38,544 nt of DNA from Campylobacterales bacterium (GTDB taxonomy: Bacteria > Campylobacterota > Campylobacteria > Campylobacterales > Sulfurimonadaceae), in assembly GCA_026390135.1 (NCBI GenBank), contig JAPLGN010000019.1:1-38544 (forward strand), given 5' to 3'. Position numbers and translations under genes: made by a program. Positions within the stretch are counted from its first letter, which is position 1; each line of letters starts with the position of its first letter. Below, piece by piece: positions 6,933 to 17,982 of the stretch. The notes below the pieces were generated by a model. The model was not told the DNA's origin. It was given only the letters and a program-made list of their open reading frames with translations, and did no database searches.

Positions 6933-7571
6933 ATGCAGTTAGGTTTCTTGGTAGACCTTCGCCTTTGTATGGGCTGTAAGGGCTGTGAGATCGCATGTAA
7001 AGTGGAAAATGAAGTTCCACTAAGCACATGGCGTCTTCGTGTAAAGTATGTCGATGTTGGGAGTTTTCCGGAAACTAGACGTACGTTTACTCCACTTCGT
7101 TGTAACCACTGTGCTAATGCGCCGTGTGAACGTATTTGTCCTGTAAGTGCGTTGCACTACATTGAAAACGGTATTGTAAATATTGATAAAGAACGCTGTA
7201 TTGGGTGTGCAGGATGTGTTATGGCGTGTCCTTACGGAGCTATTTACATCGATCCGCAAACACAAACTGCGGACAAATGTACCTATTGTGCTCACCGTAT
7301 TGCAAGCTCTATGATGCCGTCATGTGTTGTTGCGTGTCCAGTTGAAGCGAATATTTTTGGAGATTTAGACGATCCATTGTCGAACATCAGTAAATATATT
7401 CAACAGCACCAAGGCAATGTTCAAGTTCGTAAACCGGAAAAAGGAACCGATCCTCACCATTTTTATGTTGGTGGCGGAAATGTTCAGTTAAATCCATTGG
7501 CATCATTCCGTGGAGAGGGTCATAACCTCTTTAACAAACTTACTCATCTCCCTTTAGGAGGGCACCACTAA
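6933..7571 (+). CDS. Four-cluster ferredoxin subunit of a Psr/Soe/Dms-type molybdoenzyme
   Basis: Electron-transfer subunit linking the molybdenum catalytic subunit to the quinone-reactive membrane anchor. The 212 residues contain four cysteine groups typical of DmsB/PsrB/NrfC-type proteins. The first is C12-x2-C15-x2-C18-x3-C22, followed by CNHCANAPCERIC, CIGCAGCVMAC and a spaced CTYC...C...C group, enough for four [4Fe-4S] clusters. There is no export signal of its own, so it would travel with the TAT-tagged catalytic subunit. Its stop overlaps the anchor gene start by one base. The His-rich end ('GGHH') is unremarkable. Gene order here is B-C-A, unlike the common A-B-C. Confidence 0.9.
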   Translation: MQLGFLVDLRLCMGCKGCEIACKVENEVPLSTWRLRVKYVDVGSFPETRRTFTPLRCNHCANAPCERICPVSALHYIENGIVNIDKERCIGCAGCVMACPYGAIYIDPQTQTADKCTYCAHRIASSMMPSCVVACPVEANIFGDLDDPLSNISKYIQQHQGNVQVRKPEKGTDPHHFYVGGGNVQLNPLASFRGEGHNLFNKLTHLPLGGHH

Positions 7572-8476
7572 TGGTACACGAAGCAATTGCAGCAACGAAT
7601 GCGATAGTCGTCCTTGACGTTCCTCTTCCTGGAATTGTCTGGGGTTGGATTATTACGATGAATATGTGGGCGAAAAGTATCGGTACCGGTATTATTTTCA
7701 TCACTTTCTTTTTATTGAAAAAATATCCTGAGGAAACTGGTTTTATACGGTTTCCTGCAGTCGTGGTGTCGATCGTATTTATCCACCTTTTCTTATTTTT
7801 TACCGTCATTGATTTGCACCAAATGTTCCGCTTTTGGCACATTTTCTTCTACCCGCATATGACTTCGGCGATTACGATCGGTGCATGGATGGCAACAGGT
7901 TTTGTTGGTCTTTTATTGGCTATGGCATATTTCATTTATATGCACCCTAGAAAAGATAAAGAGATGTATGACAAATTATTGGGATACACTGTCATTTTAG
8001 CAATTCCAGTCACGTTATACACTGCAGGTCTTATGGCTCAATCAACAGCGCGTGAGCTATGGCAAATGCCTACTGAATCGGCGCAAATGATTTTAGCTGC
8101 CCTTTTAGCAGGGTCAGCAACGATGATTTTATTGGGCGGCAATAGATTTAATAACAGAATCAAAAAAGATCTTGGGCTCATTTTGGGATTGAGTGCGTTT
8201 TCGGCATTTATCCTTTATATGGCAGAGTACATTTTCGGTGGAATGAAAGCAGAAGAGGTTATTGCGACATTAGAGTTTATCAAAGGTGGAGAATACACCA
8301 TTATGTTCTGGATTGGACAAGTTATGGCGTTCATCATCCCAATGGTTCTTGTCTGTTTGAGTATTAAGAAAGAGTCGTATTATTTGTTGAAGATCGCTGC
8401 TGTATCAGCATTGGTCGGTTTATGGGTAGCTAAACACGTTTGGCTAGTTATCCCACAATTGTTAAACATGAGCTAA
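7571..8476 (+). CDS. NrfD/PsrC-like integral membrane anchor of the molybdoenzyme
   Basis: A hydrophobic protein of 301 residues with about eight membrane segments separated by short charged loops. It matches the NrfD/PsrC/DmsC type of quinone-interacting subunit without haem. Early histidines and acidic residues (for example 'IDLHQMFRFWH') lie near predicted helix ends where quinone sites are found in PsrC-like proteins; this placement is inferred. It overlaps the Fe-S gene by one base, and the catalytic subunit follows within about 10 bases, so the three are co-translated. It would pass electrons between menaquinone and the Fe-S subunit. Confidence 0.88.
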   Translation: MVHEAIAATNAIVVLDVPLPGIVWGWIITMNMWAKSIGTGIIFITFFLLKKYPEETGFIRFPAVVVSIVFIHLFLFFTVIDLHQMFRFWHIFFYPHMTSAITIGAWMATGFVGLLLAMAYFIYMHPRKDKEMYDKLLGYTVILAIPVTLYTAGLMAQSTARELWQMPTESAQMILAALLAGSATMILLGGNRFNNRIKKDLGLILGLSAFSAFILYMAEYIFGGMKAEEVIATLEFIKGGEYTIMFWIGQVMAFIIPMVLVCLSIKKESYYLLKIAAVSALVGLWVAKHVWLVIPQLLNMS

Positions 8477-8487
8477 AGAGGTAAATG

Positions 8488-11400
8488 ATGTATTTAGAAA
8501 GCAGAAGAACATTTTTAAAAGGTGCAGCGTTCACCGTAGCAGGCGCAGCTATTGCAAAAGGGGTTTTTACAACCGATGCAGTTGCTGAATCAGTTGAAAA
8601 TAGTAAATTTACCAATACTCCAGATACTCTTTCATTTTATCCTCCATTGGACCAATGGGATAATTTCCAAGAGCTTGATGGAACAGACTGGAAACGTGGC
8701 GGTATCGGTCGTCACGGTGTAAAGAGTGAAGAGAATCCTGATGGTATTTTAGTTCATGACTATATGGTTATTCCTACGGCATGTTCCAACTGTGAAGCTT
8801 CATGCGGATTGACGGCATGGGTTGATAAAAAAACGATGACGGTTAAAAAGTACATGGGTAACCCATTGCATCCGGGTTCACGTGGACGTAACTGTGCCAA
8901 AGGGTATGCCGTTCAGTCACAAATGTACGACCCAGATCGTATTCCATTCCCACTCAAACGTGCTCCTGGTTCAAAACGTGGAGAGGGTAAATGGATTCGT
9001 ACAACATGGGATGAGGCGATGACCACCATTGGTAAAAAGATGGGTGATACGATTCGCAAAGGGGATGAACTCTCTAAAAAATCGGTTATGTACCATGTTG
9101 GTCGTCCGAATGAAAATGGCTTTGTTCCTAAAGTTTGGGAAAGTTTGGGTCTGGATTCGTACAACTCTCATACGAACATTTGTTCGGCAAACGGTCGTAC
9201 ACCGACGATTCATTTTGTGAATGATGACCGTACCAGTCCTGACTGGGGGAATGCAAAACTTATTTTCTTGAACTCGTCGCATGCAGCGGATGCAGGGCAC
9301 TATTTTGCGCAAGCTGCGGCATATATTGCTGATGCTCGTAAGAAGGGTGCGAAAATGGTCGTTATGGACCCTCGTCTTTCAAACTCTGCGGGTATCGCGG
9401 ATTTATGGCTCGCACCATGGCCGGGTACTGAAACGGTCATCTATCTTCATTTGGCAAGCCGAATTTTGAGTGATAATCTTGTAAATAAAGCCTTTGTTAA
9501 ACGTTGGTTTAACTGGGATACATTGATGAAAGATAGTGATTATCTCAATTATATGGTTGAAAAAGGGTACGTCCCAAAACTTCCAGAAGGGCGTGATTTT
9601 GAAAGTTATTTAGAGCTTTTAAAAGATATGTATGCGCCATATACTCTCGAATTTGCTGAAAAAGAGACCCATATTCCAGCCTATAAACTTGAAAAACTCT
9701 ATGAGATGTTTATTTGGGCAGAAGATGCCATTTCGACGTACGTTTGGCGTGCGGCCGCTGCGGGTAATCGCGGTGGATGGATGGTCGGTAAAGCGGTATT
9801 CTTTGTAACCGGTTTACGTGGTGCTATCGGCAATGTCGGCGGAACTGGTTTTTATCATTCACACGATATTTCAGTGGGTGGTAAAGGGGGAAGTTCTACT
9901 GTTGGACAGGGTAAAGGCGGTGCAGACGTCCCTGCGGTTAAAGCATGGAACGAGTTGACATGGCCACCAGAATGGCCTATTTCAACGTATGAAATGTCAT
10001 TTTTATTGCCTCATCTTTTGAGTGATACTGAGTGGCAGAAAAAATGGAATGATCGCGGATTGCAAGTACCAAGTAAATTGGCTGTCTATGCTCCTCGTAT
10101 GTACAATCCGGTGTGGATTAATCCGGATGGATTCCGTTGGATCGAAGTTCTTAAAGATGAGACAAAAATGGAACTTACCTTTAACCTCTCTCCGGTATGG
10201 TCAGAAACAAACTGGTACATGGACTATGTCCTTCCCGTCGGACTTGCAGGTGAGCGCCACGATCAGCACTCTGAAGCAACGATTCCTGCACGATGGACAA
10301 CGTTCCGTCAGCCGGTATTGCGTGTAGCACTCGAAAAATCGGGTTGGAAACCAAAAAATCCAAATCGTGCAACTCTTGAAGCACACATCAAAGCAGGTCT
10401 TGGTGAAGTGTGGGAAGAGAATGAGTTCTGGTTCCAATTGTGTACGGATTATATTGACCCTGATGGAAGTTTGAACATCAAGAAGATGTGGGAAAGTAAA
10501 CGTCATCCAGGCAAAGCGGTTACCATTGCAGAATGGTACGATGCGGCATTTGGAGATAATCTTCCGAAACTTCATGAAACGGTTATGAATGATGAACGAT
10601 ACACGAAAGAAGAGTTCCCAGTTTATTCGTACATGAGAGATCATGGTGTATGGCTCGAAGAAGATAAAATTTACAACGTTCAAGAGCGTGAACTCAAAAT
10701 GGAAGAGGGCAAAGTTGAATCGTATGAGCATAAATACGATGCGGCATCGATGAGCGTTGACAGTTCGGGCATTATTAGTGCAGTTGATGACAAAGGGGTA
10801 TCGAAAAAAATCGGAATCCAAATCGACGGTAAAAAAATGCAAGGCTTTACGACACCAACGCGTAAACTTGATGTATATACACAATGGGTAGCAAAAGATT
10901 GGAAATGGCCAGAATATGGAATGCCAATCTATCCACGTAATGACAAAGAGAAAGAAGATATGGTTCATATTGTCTCTCACGTCAATCATATCTATATGAA
11001 AGAGGAAAACTCATTTGCTCTCAATACGGTCTTCCGTTTGCCGTATAACATTCATACCCGTTCGGCGAACTCCAAACATTTGATGGAAATAAGCCAAAAC
11101 CATGATCCTATTTGGATCAGTACGGGAGATGCAAAACGTCTTGGCCTTAAACGCGGTGATGCGATCCGTGTAAAAATTGTTGATACAGTTTCAGGACTGG
11201 AGAGTGGACATTTTGTAGCGATGGCAGTTCCAACTGAGGGCGTTCTTCCCGGTACGCTTGCGTGTTCACATCATGGCGGACGATGGAAGCTTACTAACCA
11301 TGTCACAATCCCTAATGGGGTAAGTGATGGTAAGGTAGCACCGGGCGTAGCGCCTCGTGATTTGAGTAACAAAGACTTCCTCAAAGAATCACCGGCAAAC

Positions 11401-11880
11401 GTAGGTAAAGTAGGTGGTCAAAGTATCATCGATGATTACAGTGGTACAAGTGGTATCAACAGCTTTGGAGTACCTGTAGCTGAAATCCAAATGGATGGAA
11501 AAGTGGGTAAACTCAAATACGTTGAAGGGATTAAAGGGTTCAAAGCAGAGCGTTTTGCCGAGTATAACCGAGATTCTGAAAATGTATGGTGGGATGGACT
11601 AAGTGGTTCATGGCAAAATGCTGTTGCGGCTCCGCATCCTGACCCAGTATCCGGAATGCACTGCTGGCACCATAAAGTTCTTGTTGAACCGGCGCAGCCA
11701 GGAGATAAAATCGGAGATATTTTTGTCAATTATGACAACAATCTCAAAGTTTACCAGGCGTGGAGAGATAAGCTTTCACGTGGATTGGATTCTAATTCCA
11801 AACTTCGACGTCCTCGTCACATTTTCCGTCCATGGGTCAAGCTTGATCCAGCATCGTATGATGTGACAATTAAGGCGTAA
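8488..11880 (+). CDS. TAT-exported molybdopterin oxidoreductase catalytic subunit (Psr/Phs/Soe/Ttr group)
   Basis: Catalytic subunit of 1130-1131 residues, bis-MGD type. The twin-arginine signal 'SRRTFLK' at residues 6-12 is followed by a hydrophobic stretch, so the enzyme faces the periplasm. The N-terminal [4Fe-4S] site is C100, C103, C107 and C137. The likely Mo ligand is Cys233 in 'TNICSANG', which places it with cysteine-ligated sulfur, arsenate and tetrathionate enzymes rather than the serine (DMSO) or aspartate (nitrate) types. It is longer than PsrA or ArrA (roughly 760-860 residues) and closer to or beyond TtrA and SoeA. The start is uncertain: two adjacent ATGs occur (8485 and 8488), and the second is better spaced from AGAGG. 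The substrate cannot be fixed from sequence; polysulfide/sulfur reduction or sulfite oxidation are the leading options given the likely lifestyle. Confidence 0.88.
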   Translation: MYLESRRTFLKGAAFTVAGAAIAKGVFTTDAVAESVENSKFTNTPDTLSFYPPLDQWDNFQELDGTDWKRGGIGRHGVKSEENPDGILVHDYMVIPTACSNCEASCGLTAWVDKKTMTVKKYMGNPLHPGSRGRNCAKGYAVQSQMYDPDRIPFPLKRAPGSKRGEGKWIRTTWDEAMTTIGKKMGDTIRKGDELSKKSVMYHVGRPNENGFVPKVWESLGLDSYNSHTNICSANGRTPTIHFVNDDRTSPDWGNAKLIFLNSSHAADAGHYFAQAAAYIADARKKGAKMVVMDPRLSNSAGIADLWLAPWPGTETVIYLHLASRILSDNLVNKAFVKRWFNWDTLMKDSDYLNYMVEKGYVPKLPEGRDFESYLELLKDMYAPYTLEFAEKETHIPAYKLEKLYEMFIWAEDAISTYVWRAAAAGNRGGWMVGKAVFFVTGLRGAIGNVGGTGFYHSHDISVGGKGGSSTVGQGKGGADVPAVKAWNELTWPPEWPISTYEMSFLLPHLLSDTEWQKKWNDRGLQVPSKLAVYAPRMYNPVWINPDGFRWIEVLKDETKMELTFNLSPVWSETNWYMDYVLPVGLAGERHDQHSEATIPARWTTFRQPVLRVALEKSGWKPKNPNRATLEAHIKAGLGEVWEENEFWFQLCTDYIDPDGSLNIKKMWESKRHPGKAVTIAEWYDAAFGDNLPKLHETVMNDERYTKEEFPVYSYMRDHGVWLEEDKIYNVQERELKMEEGKVESYEHKYDAASMSVDSSGIISAVDDKGVSKKIGIQIDGKKMQGFTTPTRKLDVYTQWVAKDWKWPEYGMPIYPRNDKEKEDMVHIVSHVNHIYMKEENSFALNTVFRLPYNIHTRSANSKHLMEISQNHDPIWISTGDAKRLGLKRGDAIRVKIVDTVSGLESGHFVAMAVPTEGVLPGTLACSHHGGRWKLTNHVTIPNGVSDGKVAPGVAPRDLSNKDFLKESPANVGKVGGQSIIDDYSGTSGINSFGVPVAEIQMDGKVGKLKYVEGIKGFKAERFAEYNRDSENVWWDGLSGSWQNAVAAPHPDPVSGMHCWHHKVLVEPAQPGDKIGDIFVNYDNNLKVYQAWRDKLSRGLDSNSKLRRPRHIFRPWVKLDPASYDVTIKA

Positions 11881-11913
11881 AAACCTTTCTTCCCCTTGCT
11901 AAAAGGGACTTCT

Positions 11914-11933
11914 AAAGGGCTTTTCAGCCCTTT
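11914..11933 (+). terminator. Hairpin between the catalytic subunit and chaperone genes
   Basis: AAAGGGC (11914-11920) pairs perfectly with GCCCTTT (11927-11933) around the loop TTTTCA, followed by a short T run. It may act as a partial terminator, or protect the upstream mRNA from 3' decay so that structural subunits are made in excess of the chaperone. Confidence 0.5.
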
Positions 11934-11974
11934 TGGCTACAATCCTACAATCACTATTAAAAGGCCTAACCGTT

Positions 11975-12598
11975 ATGGATGAGATCATTGCACGAAGCAA
12001 TATATATGCACTTCTTTCTCGAATACTTCTCCAAGAACTGGACAGTGAACTCTTGGAAACACTTAAAACAGATCCGACAGTATTAGAATTTTTTCCTCAT
12101 TGGAATGAGTGGGAACAGCGTACAAGCATAAGTAATACTAAACTTTTAGAAGAGTATCTTAATCCTGATTTTACCAATCTGTCTATTTTACATCTTGTTC
12201 CATATGAGACTTTTTATACACGCTCAGATCAAATGATTGAAACGGGCGGGGCTAATCCAGTCACGGATATTTACAGTGCATACGATTTTATGGTTGATTA
12301 TGAAATCGCTCGTGTTGTTTCCGCCGATCACATTGGAATCCAATATGAATTTATGCATCATCTCTGTGATGCACAAAAAAAAGCTATGGAAGAAAATGAT
12401 TCAGAGGCGGTTCGAGATCTTCAAGAGGTACAGCACCGTTTTTTGAATACTCATTTACTTCAATGGGCACCGATGTATCTCATCAATATGAAATATGAAT
12501 CCAGAACCCCTTTGTATTACGATGCTGCTGAGACGGCACTGGAGTTTATCCTCTCTGATAATGAAACCTTAAGTGCAGTAGTTTCCAAAGATTCATGA
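11975..12598 (+). CDS. TorD/DmsD-like molybdoenzyme maturation chaperone
   Basis: An all-helical protein of 207 residues from the ATG at 11975, resembling the TorD/DmsD/NarJ chaperone superfamily: N-terminal 'RSNIYALLSRILLQEL', a central 'PYETFYTR' region, and conserved acidic and aromatic residues around 'DYEIARVVSADHIGIQYEFMHHL'. Such proteins bind the TAT signal of their partner and aid cofactor insertion before export. The frame extends back to a TTG at 11933 inside the hairpin, so the ATG with AAAAGG upstream is preferred. It sits directly after the catalytic subunit, its presumed client, and its stop overlaps the following ferredoxin gene by four bases. Confidence 0.82.
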   Translation: MDEIIARSNIYALLSRILLQELDSELLETLKTDPTVLEFFPHWNEWEQRTSISNTKLLEEYLNPDFTNLSILHLVPYETFYTRSDQMIETGGANPVTDIYSAYDFMVDYEIARVVSADHIGIQYEFMHHLCDAQKKAMEENDSEAVRDLQEVQHRFLNTHLLQWAPMYLINMKYESRTPLYYDAAETALEFILSDNETLSAVVSKDS

Positions 12599-13692
12599 GT
12601 CTTTTAATCCTCTCTCCAAGTAGATGCGTTAGAGCGTTGAGTGTCAATTCGATTTGCACCCATTGTGCTGACGTGTGTCCTATCGGTGCCATTAGTATCA
12701 CAGACCGGCTCCCCTCCATTAATCAAGTGCAATGCGTCGGATGTGCAGGATGTGTTGCGGTGTGTCCAACTGAAGCGTTGAGTTTGGATGATTTCAGCTC
12801 AACCGACTTTTTCTTTACGTTTGCATCGGATGAGGAGAATCTCATTTCGTGCCAAAAAAATGTCCCTTGCATAGCGGCTTTGAGTCATGAACAGCTGATT
12901 TCTTTTGCTCAAATGAAACATGGCGTTGTTTTAGATACGGGGCACTGTGCACAATGTGATATTGGCTCACATGTTTTAGCAACACTTGCACATACGCTTG
13001 AAAATACCAATTATCTACTCGAAGCGATTGAATCAGAGTTTCGAGTAGAATGCTCGGATATTGGATACAGCGCTTTGGAAGAAGATGAAACAGTCGTGGA
13101 GAGAAGAGATTTTTTCAAGACGTTTCATCTTCGCGGATTGGGTAAAATTCGAGGGGATTTTGAAAAAGAGATTCAGAAAACGACGGATGAGTTTGTAGAG
13201 TATTCAACCGACAGTTCCCATACTAAAGAGTTGAGGACAAAAAAAATTACCGATCGACGTAAACTTTTTTTTACTGCGATAAAGCGATTGCCGACTCCGT
13301 CAATTTTTCACGTCGTTGATGGGTCAAAAATACCGTTTACGTCCCAAAAATTAATGGATGAGTCATTGTGCACTGCGTGTGAGATGTGTTATAGAATTTG
13401 TCCGACAGGGGCTTTAACCTCTGATGTTCGTAATTCTAAAATTGATTTCGACCCGTTTTTATGTGTCAAATGCCATCTGTGCCATGATGTCTGTGAACCA
13501 AAGGCAATTACCCTTTCCGAATCGTATAATTTAGCGGAATGGTACAAACCAACGGTACAGAATCTTGTAACCTATAGGGTAAGACGATGCGATGAATGCG
13601 ATGCACTATTTAGTTCCAGTGTCGGGGATAAAATTTGTCGTCGCTGCCGTTTAGAAGACGAAGAAGCAAAAGAGTTATGGGGGCTTGAATAA
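12595..13692 (+). CDS. Multi-cluster ferredoxin-like protein with C-terminal zinc-ribbon-like cysteines
   Basis: A cytoplasmic-looking protein of 365 residues. Two ferredoxin pairs are visible: N-terminal CTHCADVCP and CVGCAGCVAVCP, and C-terminal CTACEMCYRICP and CVKCHLCHDVCEP. Between them is a region with further cysteines ('SCQKNVPC' and 'GHCAQC') and a charged linker. The tail holds CDEC and CRRC, a zinc-ribbon-like pair. There is no signal peptide. It overlaps the chaperone gene (ATGA) and directly abuts the next gene. Its role may be in supplying electrons for, or assembling, the molybdoenzyme, or a cytoplasmic electron branch; this is not established by sequence. Confidence 0.75.
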   Translation: MSLLILSPSRCVRALSVNSICTHCADVCPIGAISITDRLPSINQVQCVGCAGCVAVCPTEALSLDDFSSTDFFFTFASDEENLISCQKNVPCIAALSHEQLISFAQMKHGVVLDTGHCAQCDIGSHVLATLAHTLENTNYLLEAIESEFRVECSDIGYSALEEDETVVERRDFFKTFHLRGLGKIRGDFEKEIQKTTDEFVEYSTDSSHTKELRTKKITDRRKLFFTAIKRLPTPSIFHVVDGSKIPFTSQKLMDESLCTACEMCYRICPTGALTSDVRNSKIDFDPFLCVKCHLCHDVCEPKAITLSESYNLAEWYKPTVQNLVTYRVRRCDECDALFSSSVGDKICRRCRLEDEEAKELWGLE

Positions 13693-14139
13693 ATGATGAA
13701 CAATGACAATTCGATTACGACAGAAACGTTACTCTATGGGTTTATTGCAGAAAATGCGCACAGCAATCGTTTTTCGGTTACGGTCAATAAATTGTTTAAA
13801 GGTAATGGAATAAATGCTATGGCAATACCGATGAACATACGTCCGGATGATCTGGCATTTACCATTTCACAAATGCGCAGTTCAAAACTTTCCGGTGCCG
13901 TGATTTCGTCAGAGTACCAAGAGGAAGCGTTTGCTTTGTTGGATAGAGCTTCTAATTTGGCACAAGATCATGGATATTGTGATTTTATCCGTATTGTCGA
14001 GGGTGAGCTTATCGGAGAACTCATTATGCCGATGGCTTTGGAAAAATTTGCAGACAGCGAAGCATTTGAAGACGATATTGCATTGAACTCAATGACGCAC
14101 TATTTTTATGAATTAACTACAGGAGAAAAGAATGATTAA
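13693..14139 (+). CDS. Stand-alone relic of the shikimate dehydrogenase (AroE) substrate-binding domain, function unknown
   Basis: A 148-residue protein whose whole length can be laid against the N-terminal domain of AroE. 'YGFIAENAHS' (15-24) matches the AroE 'GNPIAHS' loop. 'LSGAVISSEYQEEAFALLD' (66-84) matches 'GANVTVPFKEEAFARAD', and 'VEGELIGELIMPMALEKF' (102-119) matches 'DGRLLGDNTDGVGL'. Residues essential in AroE are replaced: the catalytic Lys by Gln76, and the NTD aspartate by Met112. The NADP-binding Rossmann domain is absent. It is therefore unlikely to be a shikimate dehydrogenase. It may bind a small ligand or a partner in molybdoenzyme maturation. It abuts the ferredoxin gene and overlaps the next gene by 8 bases. 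The alignment was made by eye. Confidence 0.65.
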   Translation: MMNNDNSITTETLLYGFIAENAHSNRFSVTVNKLFKGNGINAMAIPMNIRPDDLAFTISQMRSSKLSGAVISSEYQEEAFALLDRASNLAQDHGYCDFIRIVEGELIGELIMPMALEKFADSEAFEDDIALNSMTHYFYELTTGEKND

Positions 14140-14632
14140 AACGGATTTTAGTGATTTAAAAGCTGAGTTTGACCAGTTTGTACGAGGTAAATGTGAGAGC
14201 GGAAGTTGTGAGCCATCCAGTGATGAAAAAAGTGAAGAAGAAGCAGAGGAATATGTTCCTGGATTTGTGGATGAACTAGGGGATAAACTTCTTGCCCCTT
14301 ATCATAGCGGTGTCTATTTTTCTCGAATGGATATTAAGCGGGTCGCCGAAGCAATCGATGAATCCATCCCCATCAAAGAGCGTAAAAAAATGATTCGAGC
14401 GCTGTTTCGTCATACAACACGACGTTCGTATCTGCAAGAGGCATTTGATGAATTTAACCGCCATTTTGGAGGACGTATTTTGATTTATACAGAACTTTCC
14501 GAAGCATTTCCTGCGTCAAAACCGATTTTTGATGCCAATATAGCAAAAATTAAAAAGACTCAAAAAATGTTGGATCAGATTATACAAGATTTTGAAGAGA
14601 TAGAGCCGACGGATGAGCCGATGATGATGTAA
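14132..14632 (+). CDS. Small protein of unknown function, last gene of the molybdoenzyme operon
   Basis: I do not recognise a family. The 166 residues have no signal peptide or membrane segment. An N-terminal helix-like stretch is followed by a short cysteine pair (C21 and C26, 'CESGSC') and a glutamate-rich acidic linker (about 31-45). A basic, helical region (about 70-115; 'IKERKKMIRALFRHTTRRS') and a second helical segment follow, ending in 'PMMM'. The 8-base overlap with the AroE-relic gene implies co-expression, so a role in assembly or regulation of the enzyme is plausible but unproven. Confidence 0.7.
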   Translation: MIKTDFSDLKAEFDQFVRGKCESGSCEPSSDEKSEEEAEEYVPGFVDELGDKLLAPYHSGVYFSRMDIKRVAEAIDESIPIKERKKMIRALFRHTTRRSYLQEAFDEFNRHFGGRILIYTELSEAFPASKPIFDANIAKIKKTQKMLDQIIQDFEEIEPTDEPMMM

Positions 14633-14647
14633 TCTTACTCTAAAACA

Positions 14648-14666
14648 AAAGAGTGAATAACTCTTT
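14648..14666 (+). terminator. Possible bidirectional terminator between convergent genes
   Basis: AAAGAGT (14648-14654) pairs with ACTCTTT (14660-14666) over a 5-base loop. It sits between the molybdoenzyme operon end and the response regulator's stop codon. It may serve both strands; no long T tract is present. Confidence 0.45.
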
Positions 14667-15348
14667 ACCCAACAAACCGATACCCAATTCCCGTTTCGGT
14701 GATAATACGCTTCGGACGGGCGGGATCGGCTTCGATTTTTTGGCGTAGTTGATTGATAAAAACACGCAGATAATGCGTTTCATGCTGATAACCGACTCCC
14801 CATATCGCTTTTAAAAGCCACGAATGGGTAAGTGCTTTACCGTGGTTTTCCATAAAAATTCGGAGAAGTTTAAACTCTTTGGGAGTGAGTTTGACACCTT
14901 CATCATCGATTGTGACGATTCTGCCCGATATATCCATCGTTATTGCACCAACAACTAAAAGTGATGATGCGGTTGATGTCGGAAGTACACGACGTAAATT
15001 GGCTTGTATACGGGCAATAAGCTCATCGGTACTAAAAGGTTTGGTTACATAATCATCGGCTCCGGAATTCAGTGCGGCTATTTTGTCGGACTCATCATGG
15101 ATTGCAGATACGATAATCACGGGAGTTTGTTCATCTTCGCGATAACGCTCTAAAAACTTCACACCGCTCATATCCGGCAATCCCAAATCGAGCAAAATCA
15201 AATCAAAATGTTTATCCGCCCCTTTTTTTAATCCCTCTTTTCCCGTTGCTGCCGTCTCCGTCATAAATCCTGCAAATGCGAGTGTCATCGCAAGCAAACG
15301 GCGGATGGAGGGATCATCGTCTATAATCAGGATATGGTGAAGGGTCAT
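14665..15348 (-). CDS. KdpE-like OmpR-family response regulator
   Basis: Two-domain response regulator of 227 residues. The receiver (1-120) has the acidic pair at 'IIDDD', the phospho-acceptor Asp in 'LILLDLGLPD' and the conserved Lys in 'VTKPF'. The C-terminal winged helix (about 130-227) contains 'LTPKEFKLLRIFMENHGK', 'THYLRVFINQLRQKIE' and 'ITETGIGYRF', wording very close to KdpE. Its start overlaps the end of the antiporter-kinase gene by four bases, so that kinase is the obvious partner. No kdpFABC potassium pump genes are in this window, so the regulated genes are not visible here. Confidence 0.9.
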   Translation of the reverse strand: MTLHHILIIDDDPSIRRLLAMTLAFAGFMTETAATGKEGLKKGADKHFDLILLDLGLPDMSGVKFLERYREDEQTPVIIVSAIHDESDKIAALNSGADDYVTKPFSTDELIARIQANLRRVLPTSTASSLLVVGAITMDISGRIVTIDDEGVKLTPKEFKLLRIFMENHGKALTHSWLLKAIWGVGYQHETHYLRVFINQLRQKIEADPARPKRIITETGIGYRFVG

Positions 15349-17408
15349 AATTCACCGCGCAGTGTCACCCGAACGCAAAAATGGTCATTCTCCATCTCTA
15401 TCATCAATTTTCCGCCGTGTGCTTCGATAATGGTTTGAGAAAGCCGCAAACCAATCCCCGACCCCGGTTTACCTTGGGAATTATCCAGCCGACCTGAGAT
15501 AGTACCAAGTGTGCTGATCGTGTCAGCCGAGGGGAGATTCCCATTGTTGCAAATGACCAAATAGAGTTCATTGTATGCGCATGTCATCTCGACGCTCACA
15601 TCGTCTCCGTATTTAAATGCATTGTCCAGTAGATTGCCTATGGCTAATTGAAGCAGGGTAAAGTCTGCCATAATAGGGGGAGCGTCAGATGTTAATGATA
15701 GTTTTGCTTGCCGATACCAGTCATTTTCAGCTATCGATAATGCAGATGAGACCACCTCTTCCAATCGTCCCATCGTCATATTGAGAGGTGTTCTCTGCTC
15801 ACGAAAGCGTGCATTGACGAGTAGATTATCGATTACCTTTTCCATACGGCGGGATCCTTCGACAATGGTTTGAATCATTGCTTCTTTGTCGTTTGTTGCA
15901 AGGATAAAATTTCGGTTTGCAAGATTGCTAGCAGCACCTCGAATGAGTGTTAACGGGGTTCTCAGTTCGTGAGATAGAAGGTCAAGTAAACTTTTTTGCA
16001 TGTTAGCAACAATGCGATCTTGTTTCGAATCTTTGGTTAAGAAAGTTAAAATAGGTCCGGTCATAAAGGTGGTTGCTAATGCCATAATTACAAACATTGT
16101 AAAGAGCTCTGTCGAGAGAATCCCCATCTCATAGCCAATATTTAACACAACCAATTCCATTAGCCCTCGTGTGTTCATCAAAATTCCCAATGAGAAGGAA
16201 TCCCGCCAATTGAAGCCCATGAATTTCGCAGCCAACGAACTTCCTAATAATTTTCCGGTGACGGCAATAATAATAATCAGTCCGCAGACAAGCCACCCAT
16301 CGCTCGTATTAAGCAATCCAATCTCAGTTCGAAGCCCAGTAAGGGCAAAAAATAAGGGGAGCAATACAAGGAGACTGACGTATTCCAAGCGCGGTGCGAT
16401 CAGTTCTTTTAGCCTTGAGATTGCAGAGGAAGGCATCATCGCCCCTGCCATAAAAGCACCGAAGAGAGCGTGAATACCGATTGATTCGGTGACCAGCGAA
16501 GAGACGAGGAGTAAAACCACAATGGCCGACATGGCGTTCATACTGAGTCGCTCGTTCTGAGTACTCCCAATTTTTGCGAGAAGGGGGCGAATACCATAAA
16601 ACATAACGACAACATACGCAGCGATAAAGAGCAACAGAAACAAGGAAGAACCCAGCGTTCCCGAAATTGAGAGGGCGATAATAAGGGCTAGAATATACCA
16701 TGCGGTGATATCATCCGTCGCGGCGCAGGTAATCGCCATCGCACCGTAGCTGGTATCGGTGAGATTTTTTTCTTTGATAATACGAGCAAGGACAGGAAAG
16801 GCAGTAATACTCATGGCAATACCGATAAAGAGAGCAAACGGCATGAACGAGACATTTTGAGGAGCAAATAGTGGATAGAGCCAGTACGATAAGACTACCC
16901 CCAAGAAGAAAGGGAAGATGATGCTGGCATGACTGATAAATACCGATGCACTCGATTGTTTTTTGATCTTTTCAAAATCAAGTTCCATTCCGACAACGAA
17001 CATAAAAAATATCAGTCCGAGCTGACTGATGAGGCTGAGATTTCCCAAGGATTCTTTTGGGAATAAAAAGATCGAAAATTCAGGAAAAAACAGCCCCAAC
17101 AAGGATGGTCCAAGGATGATACCGGCGATAATTTCTCCCACAACTGTAGGCTGGGCGACAAAGGAGACTAAAAAACCGAACAGACGGGTAGCCACCATAA
17201 TCACAACAATTTGAATCAGCAAAAGAGCTAAAGGGTGGTGTAATTGTTTCAGGAAATTTTCGATCAAACCTGAACTTAGTGTTGTATGGGGCATAGCGGT
17301 ATACAAGAGAGTAGCACTTTCTAGGGCGCTTCCTTCATGAAGGACATAGGCGATTCCGCTACCGAAGAAAACGATAATGGCAATATATAAAAGGAGTGTT
17401 TTTTTCAT
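15345..17408 (-). CDS. CPA2-type cation/proton antiporter fused to a histidine kinase
   Basis: A 687-residue fusion. Residues about 5-22 are a membrane or signal segment, and 55-455 are a CPA2 (NapA/GerN-like) antiporter domain of about a dozen helices. Two adjacent aspartates at 232-233 in 'ATDDITAW' sit at the usual ion-binding site. After a linker of about 20 residues a kinase core follows: H-box His480 in 'LLSHELRTPL', N-box N592/N596 in 'GNLLDNAFKY', and G-box 'GSGIGL' at 649-654. There is no HAMP, PAS or GAF domain, so the transport domain itself is the likely sensor. The protein could transport and signal, or be a transporter-derived receptor of Na+, K+ or pH. A KdpE-like regulator overlaps its 3' end. 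Minor alternatives are a chimeric assembly or a frameshift fusion, but the reading frame is clean. Confidence 0.9.
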   Translation of the reverse strand: MKKTLLLYIAIIVFFGSGIAYVLHEGSALESATLLYTAMPHTTLSSGLIENFLKQLHHPLALLLIQIVVIMVATRLFGFLVSFVAQPTVVGEIIAGIILGPSLLGLFFPEFSIFLFPKESLGNLSLISQLGLIFFMFVVGMELDFEKIKKQSSASVFISHASIIFPFFLGVVLSYWLYPLFAPQNVSFMPFALFIGIAMSITAFPVLARIIKEKNLTDTSYGAMAITCAATDDITAWYILALIIALSISGTLGSSLFLLLFIAAYVVVMFYGIRPLLAKIGSTQNERLSMNAMSAIVVLLLVSSLVTESIGIHALFGAFMAGAMMPSSAISRLKELIAPRLEYVSLLVLLPLFFALTGLRTEIGLLNTSDGWLVCGLIIIIAVTGKLLGSSLAAKFMGFNWRDSFSLGILMNTRGLMELVVLNIGYEMGILSTELFTMFVIMALATTFMTGPILTFLTKDSKQDRIVANMQKSLLDLLSHELRTPLTLIRGAASNLANRNFILATNDKEAMIQTIVEGSRRMEKVIDNLLVNARFREQRTPLNMTMGRLEEVVSSALSIAENDWYRQAKLSLTSDAPPIMADFTLLQLAIGNLLDNAFKYGDDVSVEMTCAYNELYLVICNNGNLPSADTISTLGTISGRLDNSQGKPGSGIGLRLSQTIIEAHGGKLMIEMENDHFCVRVTLRGEL

Positions 17409-17469
17409 GCCGGAAGTGTAGCGCAGTTCGTGTCAGGAAAGTATCAAGATATAAAGTAGTCGTATCGTT

Positions 17470-17982
17470 TTAGCCGATTAATCCACTTTCTAATATAAGC
17501 TGCCACACCAATGCTGTTGTAATTCCTGCGGCAAAGCCTGCGAGTATATCATCTCCCATCACTCCCCATCCCCCTTTGGTTTCACGATCTATTCGTCCAA
17601 TAAGTGAAGGTTTTTTGATGTCATAAATGCGGAAGAAAATAAAACTCATTACAATCTGGATAGCTATTCCATTATCAAAATTTCCTAAGTCACCCATGGT
17701 AAACACTATTCCTGGAGCAATAGCAAGGGCAATCCACATCCCGACCAGCTCATCAATGACAATACGGGAATCATCATGGGTTTCGCAAGAGGCTTCGTGT
17801 TTATCAATCGCTTTTATTGCAATGAGTGTGATTAAAATAGAGAGCATAAAAAGGGTCTGTGATCCAAAAAACATTAAAATTACGACACCAAAAGGGAGAG
17901 AAACAAGAGTTCCAACTGTTCCGGGTGCTTTAGGTGCATGACCACTTTTTAAGAGGGTGAGAAAAAGCCAGTTTAGTTTCAT
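17470..17982 (-). CDS. pgpA: Phosphatidylglycerophosphatase A
   Basis: Membrane phosphatase converting phosphatidylglycerophosphate to phosphatidylglycerol. The 170 residues show the family signature: 'GHAPKAPGTVGTL' near the N-terminus, the acidic pair in 'VIDELVGMW' for Mg binding, and the C-terminal 'GGWGVMGDDILAG' motif. Three to four hydrophobic segments are seen. It begins 8 bases after the Sat-like gene on the same strand and is the last gene of the ispDF-regulator-sat-pgpA cluster. Confidence 0.92.
   Translation of the reverse strand: MKLNWLFLTLLKSGHAPKAPGTVGTLVSLPFGVVILMFFGSQTLFMLSILITLIAIKAIDKHEASCETHDDSRIVIDELVGMWIALAIAPGIVFTMGDLGNFDNGIAIQIVMSFIFFRIYDIKKPSLIGRIDRETKGGWGVMGDDILAGFAAGITTALVWQLILESGLIG

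Follow-up and report, generated by a model that had tools for sequence, protein, structure and literature searches.

A CPA2 antiporter fused to a KdpD-like histidine kinase, and its KdpE-like partner regulator, in Sulfuricurvum

Can a complete ion antiporter serve as the membrane input of a sensor kinase, and what would such a kinase control? This question is raised by one gene in a 38,544-nucleotide stretch of DNA (the window; contig JAPLGN010000019.1 of assembly GCA_026390135.1), which is contig C12 of a draft genome (G000; 1.87 Mb, 82% complete) of the genus Sulfuricurvum, the host being a sulfur-oxidising bacterium. A sequence-only reading of the window had described an unbroken 687-residue frame joining an antiporter to a histidine kinase, overlapped by four bases by a regulator gene, and this was borne out by the open reading frame (ORF), the order of its Pfam domains and the 4-bp overlap (Table 1). 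From the sequence comparisons described below we consider it likely that the pair constitutes an autoregulated two-component system of monovalent-cation homeostasis, in which a CPA2 antiporter would act as the membrane input domain of the sensor kinase.

The fusion protein and its partner regulator

A complete transporter domain and a complete kinase core were found in the same chain, which places the protein among the transporter-fused histidine kinases. Pfam reported no HAMP, PAS or receiver domain in the fusion and no sensor domain besides the antiporter, and about 22 residues separate the last membrane helix from the H-box as judged by eye; the earlier reading had likewise seen neither HAMP nor PAS and had put this distance at about 20. 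Alignment of 11 complete fusions, each of 687 aa, revealed a single gap column near residue 43 and a joint of constant length. The DD pair at 232-233 and His480, both pointed out by that reading, were at the right positions and invariant throughout the alignment. Both halves are under purifying selection, with ratios of non-synonymous to synonymous substitution (dN/dS) of about 0.04-0.07 for the antiporter part in five of six pairs, the sixth (G033-G019) being saturated, and of 0.05-0.10 for the kinase part (six pairs).

The antiporter domain scored 186 bits against PF00999 (cut-off 26.2); by eye, an additional hydrophobic segment lies N-terminal to it. The NapA chain 4bwz was aligned by phmmer with fusion residues 64-451 (E 2.5e-26), and the CPA2 subfamily model TIGR00932 was the top NCBIfam match at 145 bits, under its cut-off of 238. 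The aspartate pair is also invariant in 11 close kinase-free relatives, and Lys386 is lysine in 11/11 fusions, 11/11 close and 22/22 distant kinase-free relatives. Published work gives a residue rule for CPA2 antiporters (an essential Asp at position 7, a limited set at position 6 and Lys or Arg at position 8), where Asp at position 6 together with Lys at position 8 marks the electrogenic clades (PMC6181914); D232, D233 and K386 conform with this rule. Where 33 kinase-free relatives show at least 80% conservation, the fusions differ solely at position 453, conservatively, and at the alignment-edge positions 474-475. By alignment to NapA, the unwound-helix motif reads Ser-Ile-Thr-Ala. As the D-D/K pattern is shared with electrogenic antiporters, NapA among them, we lean weakly towards Na+/H+ exchange by the antiporter half.

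In the kinase half, His480 and the HATPase_c residues listed in Table 1 lie in near-invariant columns. The best named family was KdpD (NF007793), at 79 bits against an equivalog cut-off of 1123, and the KdpD (PF02702), USP and DUF4118 domains, each of which occurs in the true KdpD of a relative (L011), were not found in the fusion by Pfam. For the regulator, which had been called KdpE-like, KdpE (NF007820) was indeed the best NCBIfam model at 225.6 bits, below the equivalog cut-off of 325. Its residues R195, R202 and T217 show the spacing of R193, R200 and T215, which E. coli KdpE needs (PMC3264566).

Table 1. Coordinates of the antiporter–kinase module and adjoining features in the window.
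Feature	Position	Strand	Basis or remark
Antiporter–histidine kinase fusion, 687 aa	15345..17408	-	Single ORF, ATG start; Pfam Na_H_Exchanger + HisKA + HATPase_c
CPA2 antiporter domain, residues 75-458	16035..17186	-	PF00999 (Na_H_Exchanger), E 1.1e-54
Asp232-Asp233 ion-site pair (NapA DD motif)	16710..16715	-	NapA alignment
Lys386, CPA-motif position 8 (NapA Lys305)	16251..16253	-	Taken from NapA alignment
HisKA domain, residues 473-534	15807..15992	-	PF00512, E 1.3e-11; His480 at 15969-15971
HATPase_c domain, residues 583-683	15360..15662	-	PF02518, E 1.5e-10; N592, N596; G649, G651, G653
Partner response regulator, OmpR/KdpE type, 227 aa	14665..15348	-	Response_reg + Trans_reg_C; 4-bp overlap with fusion
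Regulator DNA-recognition helix, residues 190-206	14731..14781	-	Identity to Kup-linked regulators
KdpE-type direct-repeat box TTGATA-5 bp-CTGACA	17430..17447	-	21 bp before fusion ATG
Possible -10 element TACACT	17415..17420	-	9 bp after box
pgpA	17470..17982	-	PgpA, E 3.1e-36; left border of the slot holding kup/kdp modules in relatives

Origin, exchange and spread of the two halves

A search of the family recovered the fusion from 12 of 228 genomes (own included), the 11 others at 75-94% identity. In ten of them it lies whole on one contig, and contig ends interrupt it in G015 and G034; the two contigs of G034 overlap by exactly 141 identical bases, and the pieces in G015 are identical across 66 shared residues. 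Sulfuricurvum accounts for 11 of these genomes, own included, out of 41 in the genus (whole on one contig in nine). In a sample of 397 genomes of the phylum the fusion was confined to this genus, to which the full family search adds one genome of another genus.

The fused kinase was closest, at about 33-39% identity, to kinases of some 336 aa encoded beside kup. The one scanned consists of DUF4118, HisKA and HATPase_c, that is, KdpD minus its N-terminal part. Together with a KdpE-like regulator, such kinases were found next to kup, or with one gene in between, in 12 rows of the comparison (e.g., L012:2184-3904; in one row the contig ends before the regulator) and beside trkH in six (L042, L044, L047, L066-L068). 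These pairs of several Campylobacterota, which are to our knowledge not a named system, are possibly an undescribed two-component family of K+ physiology. Five further kinase-regulator pairs of this family (L039, L040, L041, L043, L045) adjoin neither trkH nor kup; by eye, a biotin carboxylase-like neighbour is present at L039, L041, L043 and L045, and a cysteine synthase-like one at L040, L043 and L045.

In the trees, the fused kinases formed one clade (100/100) that grouped with the Kup-linked kinases (90/94), and the fused regulators were nested inside the Kup-linked regulators on starred branches (96/88, 95/89). Kinase-free antiporters with 59-62% identity over about residues 3-458, where they stop, were found in 10 of the 397 phylum genomes, all of other families, and also at L016; no such orthologue was recovered in the family search (228 genomes, E ≤ 1e-45). 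More distant antiporter relatives (about 45-50%) stand alone or carry a non-kinase C-terminal part. The simplest history would be that an antiporter replaced the DUF4118 sensor of a Kup-linked kinase.

Exchange between the halves is suggested by DNA identities to the window. For G019 these were 94% over antiporter codons 1-450, 75.5% for the kinase and 79% for the regulator, with the drop at the domain joint, and the same pattern was seen for G029 (86, 62 and 69%); for G027 and L007, averages of 85-91% were obtained in all three parts. The antiporter and the kinase-regulator halves thus seem to recombine at the joint, the kinase-regulator pair moving together and the antiporter separately.

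The genome of the other genus (G1265; same coordinates as L007) carries the fusion at 92% identity, which indicates transfer; the fusion-regulator module at L007 was likely transferred horizontally. This module is flanked by an amino-acid permease gene and an HrpB-type helicase gene, and no pgpA, kup or kdp occurs in the stretch read. A further copy (L012) is found in a metagenome-assembled genome (MAG) titled Methylotenera, on a contig nearly identical to Sulfuricurvum G003; this contig is probably mis-binned, since its kup is 99.8% identical to that of G003.

Independent CPA2-kinase fusions were sought at E ≤ 1e-30 in 398 genomes of the phylum of a Pelagibacteraceae MAG (G429) and in 299 genomes of the phylum of a Niallia genome (G428), and among the matches listed none reached a kinase; two to three candidates were scored per genome, so that distant fusions could be missed, and the sampling left out Bacteroidota, Actinomycetota and other phyla. 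Among the best 40 of 3970 matching plasmid records, one reaches 80% cover of the query without being a kinase fusion: the Rhizobium plasmid match (82% cover) is an 802-aa protein of CPA2 and USP. Phages gave none (0/45 matching records, among the best 10 of 45), and neither did viral contigs. Other candidates were discarded: in G524 and G461 the long frames stop directly behind the antiporter, G795 encodes CPA2 plus USP and G779 a stand-alone antiporter. A CPA2-kinase fusion was not found described in open-licence PMC text, in which the matching literature was covered in part.

Promoter box and chromosomal slot

Upstream regions of 20 kup genes, 11 fusions and one kdp operon were compared. Two AT-rich 6-bp repeats, 5 bp apart, were found, which is the KdpE-type geometry; the window box shares this 6-5-6 arrangement with the E. 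coli KdpE site, TTTATA-5 bp-TTTACA (PMC3264566). In its typical form, the repeat is TTTATA-CTTTC-TTTATA upstream of kup and TTGATA-CTTTC-CTGACA upstream of the fusion. When the pattern was relaxed slightly, the box was located exactly 21 bp before the ATG in 11/11 fusion promoters, and in G034 as well, whatever lies upstream, and 67-81 bp before the ATG in 16/20 kup promoters (L012 being a near copy of G003). The exact pattern TTKATAYTTTYYTKAYRY gave 28 sites in the 41 genus genomes compared with four for the reversed pattern. Fourteen of these precede kup and eight the fusion, three are at kdp (two lie some 170 bp upstream of kdpA; the third, in G036, is 1.2 kb away from that gene, a 244-aa ORF intervening) and three have none of those genes near. 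The fusion boxes of G003, G030 and G035 carry one G outside the exact pattern. The sole exact site in the window's incomplete genome, and likewise in the window, is the fusion's own, and no further exact or two-mismatch box was detected in the window. In G006 (L130) and G037 (L147), both without a KdpD, Kup or fusion match, an exact box is situated between a threonine synthase-like gene and a PAS-type sensor gene (by eye).

The possible -10 element TACACT recurs at the same spacing in 10/11 fusion promoters, with TACTAT in the remaining one; it was not called by a generic sigma-70 promoter scan. From its position, RNA would start at or next to the ATG.

The recognition helix of the regulator is the same in 17/17 residues in 9/11 Kup-linked regulators, and the receiver helix α1 differs. 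Helix α1 bears kinase–regulator specificity. Two kinases could therefore feed one box without cross-talk.

The absence of a Kdp pump nearby, stated by the sequence-only reading, held for the window but not for relatives, in which kup or kdp lies within 2 kb of the fusion in 5/11 genus genomes. The slot following pgpA in the window often holds K+-uptake genes in relatives. The fusion directly follows pgpA in the window, G022 and G030, with a GGDEF gene between in G033. Between pgpA and the fusion, kup-kinase-regulator is present in G003 and G034, and kdpABCDE in G035 (KdpA, P-type ATPase, KdpC, KdpD and regulator, by Pfam on the G035 genes or on L011, their match); kdp and kup precede the fusion in G019 and G015. 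Among fusion-less genomes, kup follows pgpA in G001, G007 and G024, and kdp does so in G012. Across the 41 genus genomes, KdpD was found in six, Kup in 16 and TrkH in 38, and the window's assembly has one TrkH.

Further neighbours of the module were recorded. Positions 6933-14632 of the window encode an Fe-S protein, NrfD, a 1131-aa molybdopterin oxidoreductase (below the cut-offs of the NCBIfam families listed), a TorD-like chaperone, a ferredoxin-like protein of 365 aa, a protein of 148 aa that resembles the N-terminus of shikimate dehydrogenase, and one of 166 aa for which neither Pfam nor NCBIfam gave a match; the later genes of this cluster are kept beside the fusion in several relatives. 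Downstream of fusion regulators or of Kup-linked ones, a MutS-like protein with a C-terminal HNH domain (980 aa, L073:2304-5246) is found repeatedly, whole or as its N-terminal part, also at L081, L035, L036, L037 and L033, and L073 has a 65-residue copy of its N-terminus on the opposite side of the fusion module. In L074 and L073, a short frame ending YRFVG-stop, like the regulator C-terminus, lies about 60-90 bp before the fusion and may be a remnant of a Kup-linked regulator that was deleted. In kdp-bearing genomes, a 141-aa protein with no Pfam match (L011:4960-5385) recurs after kdpE (L074, L076, L080, L046).

Interpretation and comparison with known systems

The proposed system would work as follows. 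The helix bearing His480 would be altered by the antiporter core, through its ion occupancy or its elevator movement, the kinase would phosphorylate the regulator of the overlapping gene, and the regulator would bind the box, leading to more fusion synthesis and, in genomes with the box at kup or kdp, to more K+ uptake. TM13 (transmembrane helix 13) is part of the mobile core domain in this antiporter fold (PMC11150392), and a kinase joined there would therefore be placed to feel the elevator step; sensing of ion flux or pH through the transport cycle, as put forward by the sequence-only reading, may be the input. In the most likely physiological sense, the fusion would extrude Na+ while reporting an unfavourable Na+/K+ or pH state, so that Na+ export would be coupled to K+ import. 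In the window's assembly and in G030 and G033, where neither kup nor KdpD was found, the module itself is predicted to be the main target. A bolder version, which we regard as doubtful, is a one-gene homeostat: an active antiporter would read its own transport state and set its own promoter via kinase and regulator, itself the chief target where kup and kdp are lacking, in a module that is mobile between species and one other genus, plugs into box-bearing K+-uptake genes and swaps its antiporter half while keeping the kinase-regulator pair.

Several observations weigh against a cation-homeostasis system with an antiporter as sensor. An AlphaFold model of the fusion from 13 aligned sequences reached a mean predicted local distance difference test (pLDDT) score of 47, with about 29-47 across the antiporter. 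The selectivity segment Ser-Ile-Thr-Ala fits no published K+ or Na+ rule cleanly. In the tree, the grouping of fused and Kup-linked kinases was unstarred and the fused branch was long (2.19), and the tree program flagged the meeting of long branches, among which were fused and Kup-linked rows. The box is missing from 4/20 kup promoters, and its pattern was drawn from promoters that it then found, save the kdp sites of G012 and G036, the latter being far from kdpA; the other 23 kup, fusion and kdp sites are among, or next to, the promoters used to write it. One-mismatch sites in 12 genomes were about at control level. Moreover, no kup or kdp adjoins the fusion in 6/11 genus genomes (the G029 contig being too short to tell), and neither KdpD nor Kup matches were obtained in G000, in its 82% complete state, G030 and G033.

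Of the alternatives, a joining of two genes by sequencing or assembly error is the easiest to dismiss. The antiporter does exist alone in other families, and two separate genes in relatives, with a stop codon lost here, had been named as the finding that would overturn the fusion. This failed because those kinase-free antiporters simply stop after the antiporter; in relatives the 687-aa frame is likewise unbroken, at 75-94% identity and across many genomes that were assembled separately, and its presence in 12/228 family genomes rules such an error out. Control of the neighbours instead of K+/Na+ homeostasis is improbable: the molybdopterin oxidoreductase cluster, the GGDEF protein and the sulfate adenylyltransferase-pgpA genes flank the fusion in the window and several relatives, but the module occurs with its box and without them in the stretches read of G027, G019, G015 and L007, and the window holds no second exact or two-mismatch box.

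The two remaining alternatives concern what the antiporter half does. It may, as a serious though less favoured possibility, be a pure receptor that binds its ion and signals without transport, since kinase fusion does not demand transport and Ks-Amt5, also without HAMP, binds but does not translocate ammonium (PMC5764959). However, none of D232, D233 and K386 varies among the 11 fusions, the conserved positions of kinase-free relatives are kept save for those named above, and the antiporter part is under strong purifying selection. That both halves are independent activities, fused for co-expression or localisation, with a kinase not controlled by the antiporter, appears rather unlikely. The separate recombination of the halves in G019 and G029 speaks for it, as does CbrA, which transports histidine and whose activities are not significantly affected by histidine, although the same study indicates that the transporter domain of CbrA appears to modulate autokinase activity (PMC7096432). 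Against it, the antiporter stands in the place of the DUF4118 membrane sensor of related Kup-linked kinases, the linker has the same length in 11/11 aligned fusions, and Pfam found no other sensor domain that could take its part.

Transporter-kinase fusions as such are already known. In the SLC5/SSS kinases (CbrA, CrbS/MxtR, PrlS), a whole secondary transporter likewise forms the membrane part of a kinase with a partner regulator (PMC7918813, PMC7096432), and CbrA both transports and signals (PMC7096432). The present fusion differs from them by Na_H_Exchanger (CPA2) instead of SSF, by a KdpD-like kinase with an OmpR/KdpE-like regulator, and in that neither PAS nor receiver was found; no STAC domain was among its Pfam matches, the presence of the STAC model in the library being unconfirmed. 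Ks-Amt5 likewise joins an ion transporter domain to a kinase without HAMP, but it is an Amt trimer whose regulator is unidentified and which does not translocate its ion (PMC5764959), whereas the fusion has a NapA-type antiporter, a regulator in the overlapping gene and a putative transport activity; no ammonium-transporter domain was detected in it by Pfam.

KdpD/KdpE, the system of K+ limitation (PMC3938482), resembles the fusion system in the nearest named kinase and regulator families, box geometry, DNA-contact residues and kup/kdp linkage; it differs in that the antiporter takes the place of KdpD (PF02702), USP and DUF4118, and both proteins score below the equivalog cut-offs. The Kup-linked DUF4118 kinase and regulator of Sulfuricurvum and relatives share kinase and regulator ancestry, recognition helix, box and chromosomal slot with the fusion, and differ in the sensor and in receiver helix α1. 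KefC combines CPA2 with C-terminal RCK domains that gate the transporter; it has no kinase and carries QD instead of DD (PMC6181914, PMC11150392). The Rhizobium and G795 proteins (CPA2 and USP) and a Parabacteroides protein (CPA2 and a long C-terminal part without Pfam match) have no kinase either. The features tested set the fusion apart from KdpD, the SLC5 kinases and the Amt sensors; most likely it acts in the manner of a transporter-sensor of K+/Na+ homeostasis.

New here are the Kup-linked parentage, the kup/kdp synteny, the shared KdpE-type box and the recombination at the joint. As to their stimuli and roles, the SSS domains of sensor kinases have been called enigmatic (PMC7918813). Whether transporter-kinase fusions signal their transport state is made directly testable by this fusion, because it offers the well-studied NapA-type elevator fold, separable ion-site residues, no HAMP or PAS, a natural DUF4118 counterpart kinase and a predicted promoter read-out. 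The locus is a clear case of evolutionary sensor replacement, in which a transporter appears to have become its own gauge, and it suggests a way in which bacteria lacking a complete KdpD could link K+ uptake to antiport.

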